Origin: Candidatus Planktophila dulcis
Lineage (GTDB): Bacteria; Actinomycetota; Actinomycetes; Nanopelagicales; Nanopelagicaceae
Assembly (NCBI RefSeq): GCF_002288225.1
Contig: NZ_CP016777.1
Coordinates: 992,001-1,056,000 of the forward strand
Direction of reading: 5' to 3'
DNA: 64,000 nucleotides
Position 1 is the stretch's first letter, and each line of letters begins with the position of its first letter. The notes beneath the pieces were generated by a model. That model was not told where the DNA came from. It saw only the letters and a program-made list of their open reading frames with translations, and searched no databases. Below are positions 56,100 to 58,655 of this stretch, in pieces. The translations under genes and the position numbers were made by a program.

Positions 56100-57245
<1,146 letters not shown>

Positions 57246-57257
57246 CTACCTGCTCAA

Positions 57258-58157
57258 TTACGCGCCTAACGCCTGCGCAATTTCCTCACAGGCATGCTCA
57301 AGGCCCTCGGCCCGCACAACTTGATCACATGAAATTGCATCCCAACCAGGCCCACCCACCACGATGCGAGGAGCTGGGCGGATTGCAGGAATTTCATTCC
57401 AATATTTGCTTTCGGCATTCTTTGGTAATTGTGCCCATAAGAAAATTGCAGGGGGTGCACATCGCGTCACCATCGCAGATAGGGCCTCAAGCGGTGTGCG
57501 AGCACCAAGAACCGATGTCTGGATATTGCGTTCGCAGAGCGCTGCAGCCAGGGCATAGATGGGCAGCGAATGAAGCTCTTCGCCCACTGCGGCCAGTAAT
57601 ACAGGGCGAGGATTGATGGGCTTCTTTAATTCAACTACTCGATTATGCATTGTGCGTTTGAGAATTTCAGAGAAGAGATGCTCAACCTCAATACCCTTCT
57701 GATTGTTCTCCCACTCTTCGCCAATCAAAAAGAGAACCGGCGCAATCACATCAGACCATGCGCCTTCAACCCCGTATGTATCAATTTCATGGGCCAACGT
57801 TGTTTCTACAAATGTATGATCAAAACTTTGTAAGGCTTTATAGAGAGCTGCGACAACTTCTTCGCGGACTTCAAAATCATTCACGATCTTCTTCAGTGGC
57901 ACCGCTGTCTTGCAAGCCTTCGCTTGCTCGGCTGCATCTGCAGGAGTAACCCCAGCAACGATAAGGCGGCGCATCATGGTCAGCTTTGCTAAATCATTGG
58001 GGCAGTAACGGCGATGCTCGCCCTCTTCATGATCGGATGGTCCAAGGCCGTAGCGGCGGGCCCACGTGCGCAGCGTGGCTGGTGCTACACCGATGCGACG
58101 GGCAACTGCTGCCACCGTCAGTTTCTCTTCAGCGTCTACTGAAGCGCTCTTTGCCAT
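57258..58157 (-). CDS. MerR-type regulator with CarH/LitR-like cobalamin-binding domain
   Basis: 299 aa. MerR DNA-binding domain at 11-75 (LTVAAVARRIGVAPATLRTWARRYG), a four-helix bundle at about 95-175 and a Rossmann B12-binding domain at 184-299. The bundle carries W149-x9-E159-H160, the CarH/LitR signature that caps adenosylcobalamin, and His196 (GEELHSLP) stands 36 residues on, matching the lower axial ligand. The residue after Trp is Glu, where Thermus CarH has His132. So it is a candidate B12-dependent, possibly light-responsive repressor. It is divergent from whiB with 143 bp between. Confidence 0.82.
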   Translation of the reverse strand: MAKSASVDAEEKLTVAAVARRIGVAPATLRTWARRYGLGPSDHEEGEHRRYCPNDLAKLTMMRRLIVAGVTPADAAEQAKACKTAVPLKKIVNDFEVREEVVAALYKALQSFDHTFVETTLAHEIDTYGVEGAWSDVIAPVLFLIGEEWENNQKGIEVEHLFSEILKRTMHNRVVELKKPINPRPVLLAAVGEELHSLPIYALAAALCERNIQTSVLGARTPLEALSAMVTRCAPPAIFLWAQLPKNAESKYWNEIPAIRPAPRIVVGGPGWDAISCDQVVRAEGLEHACEEIAQALGA

Positions 58158-58216: not shown

Positions 58217-58252
58217 TTGAACAACGCGTGACCCGATAGGTACTTGAACAAC
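58217..58252. repeat. Direct repeat TTGAACAAC in the regulator-whiB gap
   Basis: TTGAACAAC occurs at 58217-58225 and again at 58244-58252, 27 nt apart. The second copy includes the whiB -35 box. It is a possible operator of the divergent MerR-type regulator (CarH sites hold T-x-x-ACA), but part of the match may just be -35 sequence. Confidence 0.4.
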
Positions 58253-58272
58253 CTACGAAACGGTTGTATGGT
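58244..58272 (+). promoter_or_regulatory. whiB promoter (-35 TTGAAC, -10 TATGGT)
   Basis: TTGAAC at 58244-58249, exactly 17 nt of spacer, and TATGGT at 58267-58272, giving a leader of about 22 nt with AAGGAG at 58289-58294 before the ATG at 58301. Confidence 0.65.
58248..58267. promoter_or_regulatory. Dyad ACAACC-N8-GGTTGT inside the whiB promoter
   Basis: Perfect 6-bp inverted arms spanning the spacer from the -35 to the -10 box, a typical repressor operator position. The regulator is unknown; the divergent MerR-type protein is the nearest candidate. Confidence 0.45.
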
Positions 58273-58300: not shown

Positions 58301-58603
58301 ATGGCTGAACTATCACGTCTACCGCAACCTATTGCTGAGCAATGGGAGTGGCAGTATGAAGGTGCATGCCGTTCACTCGATTCAGAGATGTTCTTCCATC
58401 CAGATGGCGAACGTGGTCCACGTCGACGCAATCGTGAGAATGCTGCAAAGGCTGTCTGCGCTTCATGCCCAGTTATTCAAGCCTGTCGCACACACGCCCT
58501 TGCAGTCCAAGAGCCATATGGAATCTGGGGAGGCATGTCAGAAGATGATCGCGCCACTATCCTGATTCAGCGCGGTATTCCTTTGATTTCACACGCTTCA
58601 TAA
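58301..58603 (+). CDS. WhiB-family Fe-S transcriptional regulator
   Basis: 100 aa from the ATG at 58301 with AAGGAG 6 nt upstream; an in-frame start at 58244 lies inside the promoter and is rejected. Four cysteines: GACRS, then CASCPVIQAC (CxxCx5C), then the GIWGGMSEDD turn and a short basic tail. WhiB proteins hold a [4Fe-4S] cluster, bind region 4 of the main sigma factor and respond to redox or NO. Position beside groEL matches mycobacterial whiB3, but the subfamily is not certain. Confidence 0.92.
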   Translation: MAELSRLPQPIAEQWEWQYEGACRSLDSEMFFHPDGERGPRRRNRENAAKAVCASCPVIQACRTHALAVQEPYGIWGGMSEDDRATILIQRGIPLISHAS

Positions 58604-58616
58604 TTTTTGAGTTAAA

Positions 58617-58655
58617 AAAGAAATCCCCCGCACATAATGTGCGGGGGATTTCTTT
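58617..58655. terminator. Bidirectional terminator between whiB and groEL
   Basis: Perfect 14-bp stem AAATCCCCCGCACA with complement around a 3-nt loop at 58621-58651, with A-rich sequence on the left and CTTTCTTT on the right. It can end both convergent transcripts. Confidence 0.93.

Follow-up and report, generated by a model that had tools for sequence, protein, structure and literature searches.

A candidate LitR/CarH-like regulator of a divergent whiB3-type gene and its predicted operator in acI actinobacteria

The window analysed here, a stretch of 64,000 nucleotides from a complete 1.35 Mb genome whose relatives are acI actinobacteria such as Ca. Planktophila, encodes on its reverse strand a 299-residue LitR/CarH-like MerR regulator (57258..58157) and, divergently on the forward strand, a whiB gene of the WhiB3 type (58301..58603). 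The conservation of an element in the whiB promoter and the repeated joint loss of element and regulator across genera indicate that the regulator very probably binds this element and thereby controls whiB. The fuller reading, a LitR/CarH-type regulator gated by adenosylcobalamin (AdoCbl) and light and dedicated to the divergent whiB3-type gene, has about an even chance of being correct.

The MerR-type open reading frame of a preliminary description of this DNA proved to be real, with both B12-binding subdomains recognizable by Pfam; the gene assignment draws on the open reading frame, Pfam, PDB matches and an AlphaFold2 model. All domains lie on the reverse strand: the MerR helix-turn-helix DNA-binding domain (residues 11-80, 57918..58127; PF13411, MerR_1, 3e-13), the four-helix B12-binding_2 subdomain (57648..57851; 3e-7), which contains W149 (57711-57713), E150 (57708-57710) and E159-H160 (57678-57683), and the Rossmann B12-binding subdomain (57303..57602; 6e-5, under the gathering score of the model), which contains E194-x-H196 (H196 at 57570-57572), P199, W241 (57435-57437, at the motif Ser position discussed below) and G268-G269. 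The best PDB sequence matches are to CarH of Thermus thermophilus (TtCarH); the score with the NCBIfam CarH equivalog model is 105.9 bits, below the cut-off of 400. The DNA-binding domain is approximately 65-70% identical to that of distant orthologues, and its recognition motif is RTWARRY, the family consensus being RTWDRRY and the LitR/CarH class I pattern RxWERRY-like. The protein is plausibly a variant of LitR/CarH, and its role as a photoreceptor is a candidate role only.

The whiB gene begins with ATG at 58301, with the ribosome-binding site AAAGGAG just upstream. Its best PDB match is WhiB3 of Mycobacterium tuberculosis (2e-34) and the next-best WhiB is WhiB1 (1e-13), which places the partner closest to WhiB3 among the solved WhiB proteins. 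Downstream of the regulator is guaB (56100..57206, reverse strand), identified by gene-order comparison as a conserved neighbour and probably not a target. The placement of the regulator against whiB and beside guaB, noted previously, was confirmed in the gene order groES-groEL-whiB<>merR-guaB-guaB3-guaA, which is shared by almost every acI locus that was compared and recurs in many further families of actinomycetes; the arrangement is old, and not peculiar to freshwater photoheterotrophs. Mycobacterium whiB3 is likewise located near groES-groEL and guaB2-guaB3, but it is adjoined by sigD and not by a LitR-type gene. No description of a link between a LitR/CarH gene and whiB was found in the open-access literature searched. 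In one family (f9; L302, L304, L305) the regulator is directly beside groEL, and because neither a neighbouring whiB nor an upstream element accompanies it there, it may act on other targets in that family. Between the convergent whiB and groEL genes of the window there is a strong 18-bp hairpin with a T-rich tail (58617-58655), a probable terminator. Eight public metagenome bins labelled as Bifidobacterium breve or Streptomyces griseus (L156, L157, L165, L168, L187, L193, L203, L204) hold acI-type sequence at the whiB-merR locus, and their titles are probably wrong.

The candidate operator/promoter O1 (TTGAACAACCTACGAAACGGTTGTATGGT; 58244..58272, forward strand) consists of a -35-like TTGAAC (58244-58249), a 17-bp spacer (AACCTACGAAACGGTTG, 58250-58266) and a -10 box of the form TANNNT (TATGGT, 58267-58272), and ends 29 bp ahead of the whiB start codon. 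A consensus promoter scan returned no promoter at its threshold, and the assignment of O1 as a promoter is predicted from conservation. Each of the 127 distinct acI intergenic sequences between whiB and merR has the element, and 126 of them score at least 23 of 27 positions. Among syntenic pairs from outside acI, 33 of 34 scored have a match of at least 17 of 27; 25 non-acI loci matched at 16-26 of 27 positions, and nine pairs from distant families that were fetched after the consensus was set matched at 19-24 of 27, against a background whose mode is 15 of 27 and in which approximately 2% reach 19. A second copy without a -10 box, O2 (TTGAACAACGCGTGACCCG; 58217..58235, forward strand), is located 27 bp upstream of O1. 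Of the acI intergenic sequences, 56 have a copy like O2, 55 of these with a spacing of 26-27 bp; such copies score up to 18 of 19 positions, shuffled controls reaching at most 13 of 19. That this second copy lacks a -10 box shows that the role of the element goes beyond that of a promoter. The operators of LitR/CarH class I are tandem 11-bp repeats, nnnnTnnACAn, that overlap the promoter (PMC9304148). O1 contains one TnnACA (TGAACA), which overlaps the -35 box, and 11 bp further on a degenerate TG repeat, a likeness to be read with the caution that any -35 box resembles TnnACA.

Among 121 acI-family genomes, 86 have both the regulator and whiB, none has the regulator only, nine have whiB only and 26 have neither (Fisher p 4e-19). 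The two Fisher values of the analysis, 4e-19 and 5e-13, are optimistic since kinship was ignored. Genomes lacking the regulator belong to at least four genera (g2, g4, g8, g16). One of them (G100) was counted as lacking the regulator because the protein matched there, at 23%, is a separate one of canonical CarH-like type; this protein (L065:3036-3950), with HxxG and the Ser motif, is encoded beside genes for a fasciclin and a pyridine-nucleotide oxidoreductase. All nine whiB-only loci were fetched, of which one is cut by the end of its contig. At the eight readable loci the element is absent (8/8), the best scores being 14-19 of 27, which is the background level. Upstream of one such whiB (L294, genome G076) a promoter-like stretch, TTGACA-N17-TAAATT, has been kept and the left half of the element lost, and another locus (L289) seems to hold a decayed remnant. 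These observations strengthen the earlier proposal that the regulator is linked to whiB. It is very unlikely that the element is a site for RNA polymerase or for some other factor, such as WhiB or a BldC-like protein, with the MerR neighbour as a passenger: the element does include -35 and -10 boxes, and one deletion may remove neighbouring genes together, but many spacer positions in the acI sequences carry 1.9-2.0 bits and are conserved as strongly as the -35 box, a promoter-less second copy exists, and the element is lost with the regulator while whiB remains. Element conservation combined with co-loss that repeats across genera argues instead for action of the MerR regulator on the element, and so on whiB.

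A genome-wide search allowing one mismatch to the element hits the whiB promoter and nowhere else, and in six regulator-less genomes such a search finds no site; two-mismatch matches occur in small numbers comparable to those of a reversed control pattern. The suggestion that rhodopsin or carotenoid genes might share the site was therefore not borne out. The rhodopsin gene (C1:223484) has no two-mismatch match closer than 277 kb, and sharing by carotenoid genes is unsupported, there being no other close site anywhere in the genome.

The residues of the putative cobalamin pocket are located where they had been claimed to be: W149-x9-E159-H160 constitutes a Wx9EH motif, H196 is in the position of the lower ligand, and the residue after Trp is Glu (E150). 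Of the two spacings said to match CarH, that from W149 to H160 (11 residues) is the same as W131-H142, but that from H160 to H196 is 36 residues against 35 for H142-H177; R184 is an insertion in the alignment, and the pocket residues still align despite the difference of one. In an alignment of 70 proteins, approximately 69 of them from acI genomes and one a distant outlier, W149, E159 and H196 are identical in all 70 and H160 in 69. Among 133 class-wide homologues, W149 is found in 123, E159 in 132, H160 in 130 and H196 in 131. Given this near-invariance, the match of Trp, Glu and His exceeds chance.

Two other motifs depart from those of known cobalamin-binding proteins. In the classic B12 motif, D/ExHx2G/Px41SxT/Vx22-27GG, the homologues have Ala or Pro for the glycine of HxxG, a change that the published motif partly allows (PMC9304148). 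The regulator retains ExHx2P, the x41 spacing and GG, and has WxQ (W241, Q243) in place of SxT/V, a substitution unremarked in the preliminary description. Of the 133 class homologues, 128 have Trp for the motif Ser and most of the remainder Tyr or His; for the T/V, most have Gln. Because the motif Ser of B12 domains lines the pocket of the nucleotide tail, W241 weighs most among the sequence features that speak against ordinary binding of cobalamin; with W241 and Gln243, cobalamin may be bound differently or not at all. In light-responsive B12 domains the signature elements GxxW, EH, GxxH and GxxxP are all present (PMC11796333). The regulator has GxxW, EH and GxxxP, and Glu193 replaces the glycine of GxxH, a second sequence argument against ordinary binding.

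The AlphaFold2 model of the regulator (56-sequence alignment, mean pLDDT 85) has full-length TtCarH as its top Foldseek match, and the comparison with CarH that the preliminary description had called for yielded a Z score of approximately 20. Its B12 domain superimposes on those of a photocobilin, CarH and CtMerR of Chloracidobacterium with Z scores of approximately 19-20 and rmsd of 2.5-3.2 Å over approximately 190-205 residues; the placement of W149, H160, H196 and W241 in the pocket was judged from the alignment together with this fold match. The heme-sensing SCHIC domain of AppA also matches the model, with a Z score of 18.5, so the fold by itself cannot name the ligand.

The genome encodes a PduO-type adenosyltransferase, a class II (AdoCbl-dependent) ribonucleotide reductase (NrdJ) and a B12-domain protein of the size of MetH, and AdoCbl should therefore be available to the cell. 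In one finished genome (G326), the syntenic regulator (L117:6223-7332) has lost the W, H and H of the pocket and has no B12-domain match, but its helix-turn-helix and the whiB element are kept; this genome has no PduO and five control genomes have it, a single case in which only the PduO type was searched. Two genomes with an intact pocket and no PduO match (G124, G187) are drafts whose kin are PduO-positive. Across 297 genomes of the class, PduO is present in about 164 of 167 with the regulator versus 112 of 130 without (p 6e-5), a weak association because a single family (f31) accounts for many of the genomes without PduO. Within acI, co-occurrence with PduO was rejected as proof of AdoCbl use: PduO persists in genomes without the regulator, where NrdJ needs it, and its distribution is uninformative.

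It is improbable that the C-terminal domain has given up cobalamin, as in CarA or class II LitR, or has another ligand such as heme or a tail-less corrinoid, with a partner protein or another signal setting DNA binding. Such a domain would fit W241, the retention of gene and element without a pocket in G326, and the resemblance to the AppA domain. It is difficult to reconcile with the near-invariance of the adenosyl-side residues and the lower His in approximately 130 proteins and with the absence of the adenosyltransferase where the pocket is lost; moreover, CarA lacks the Trp of Wx9EH (PMC9304148), which is present here as W149, and the Rossmann B12-binding domain that class II LitR lacks was detected by Pfam and by fold match. 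Cobalamin is the probable ligand of the regulator, judging from the conserved pocket residues.

Whether cobalamin would confer a response to light is an evenly balanced guess from relatives. His was not seen at position 150, the equivalent of His132 of CarH, in the 70 aligned proteins or the 133 class homologues of the clade; the commonest residues there in the alignment include Glu, Ala, Gln, Val, Lys and Ser. CtMerR (with Arg) and photocobilins (with Gln or Tyr) are light-responsive without an equivalent of His132 (PMC11796333), and TtCarH with the H132A substitution mostly remains tetrameric under light (PMC10442372). By analogy with CtMerR and the photocobilins, the absence of this His is by itself less telling than W241. 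The possibility that the regulator senses AdoCbl without photoreception, connecting coenzyme B12 status to whiB and redox regulation with light irrelevant in vivo, is unlikely, although the lack of His at position 150, the conservation of the pocket residues and the need of the cell for AdoCbl (NrdJ) and for B12 (the MetH-like protein) are all compatible with it. AdoCbl is normally photolabile when bound in a CarH-like pocket, LitR-like members of the clade are encoded beside a photolyase and an ECF sigma factor, and the light-responsive relatives named above also lack the His.

In the mechanism proposed for an AdoCbl- and light-gated regulator, the protein would bind an element of approximately 25 bp in the whiB promoter, spanning its -35 box and spacer, and, in the genus of the host, the second copy O2 as well. 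In the AdoCbl-bound state the adenosyl group would lie against W149, E159 and H160 with cobalt on H196, and the protein would oligomerize on O1 (and O2) in the manner of CarH and occlude the promoter. If light removed the adenosyl group, or AdoCbl ran short, the regulator would be released and whiB made. Because Glu replaces His132, a bis-His light state would not be formed in the way of CarH, and the light state is predicted to resemble that of CtMerR or photocobilins. Repression of whiB is somewhat favoured over activation, as a guess from relatives and because a spacer of 17 bp is close to the optimum, whereas classical MerR activators work at promoters with long spacers.

In a quick tree, the LitR-like proteins of Streptomyces cluster with the whiB-linked proteins, apart from TtCarH; the order of descent within the clade is only suggested, because many deep branches of the tree are unresolved. 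In Streptomyces-type genomes, members of this clade stand divergently to a gene for an ECF sigma factor, with a DNA photolyase close by, as illustrated by the neighbouring ECF sigma factor in Streptomyces sp. KN37, and one related protein (L108) is encoded near a lycopene cyclase. LitR and LitS of S. coelicolor have a comparable divergent arrangement. The whiB element was looked for in Streptomyces litR-litS intergenic regions and is not there; four such regions (L104, L105, L123, L299) have a conserved element of their own, roughly CAACTYGCATCGNTTCTGCGTCGTATAGT. A broader possibility, advanced tentatively and somewhat less probable than its negation, is an ancient actinomycete-wide LitR/CarH subfamily that connects light and/or B12 to WhiB3, with a tail pocket rebuilt around Trp, a light state without bis-His ligation and streptomycete LitR as an offshoot. 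The value of the system is that it offers a testable wiring of regulator, operator and target from coenzyme B12 or light to a WhiB3-type redox regulator in a freshwater lineage that ranks among the most abundant, that the same wiring appears in many further actinomycete families, that it hints at the origin of streptomycete LitR, and that the altered tail-pocket motif is a test case for how B12 domains hold their cofactor.

Compared with known systems, the regulator shares with CarH of T. thermophilus the MerR helix-turn-helix, the four-helix and Rossmann B12 domains, Wx9EH, the lower-ligand His, the fold (Z approximately 20) and an operator, here predicted, that overlaps the -35 box. It is only approximately 25% identical to CarH, however, and differs in lacking His132, in having Trp for the motif Ser and Glu for the GxxH glycine, in one glycine of the dimer-dimer interface (aligned with N211) and in its predicted target, which is whiB and not carotenoid genes. 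The Streptomyces LitR-like proteins belong to the same clade, have Trp in the B12-tail motif and are divergent from a gene for a transcription regulator, but an ECF sigma factor replaces whiB and the conserved intergenic element is another one. CtMerR and photocobilins have the same B12-domain fold and no equivalent of His132, but CtMerR keeps SxT and GxxH, and photocobilins do not belong to the MerR regulators. In Myxococcus, CarA likewise combines MerR and B12 domains, but is without the Trp of Wx9EH (PMC9304148) and works without B12, and the partner of the regulator, whiB, has a clear sequence match in WhiB3 of Mycobacterium.
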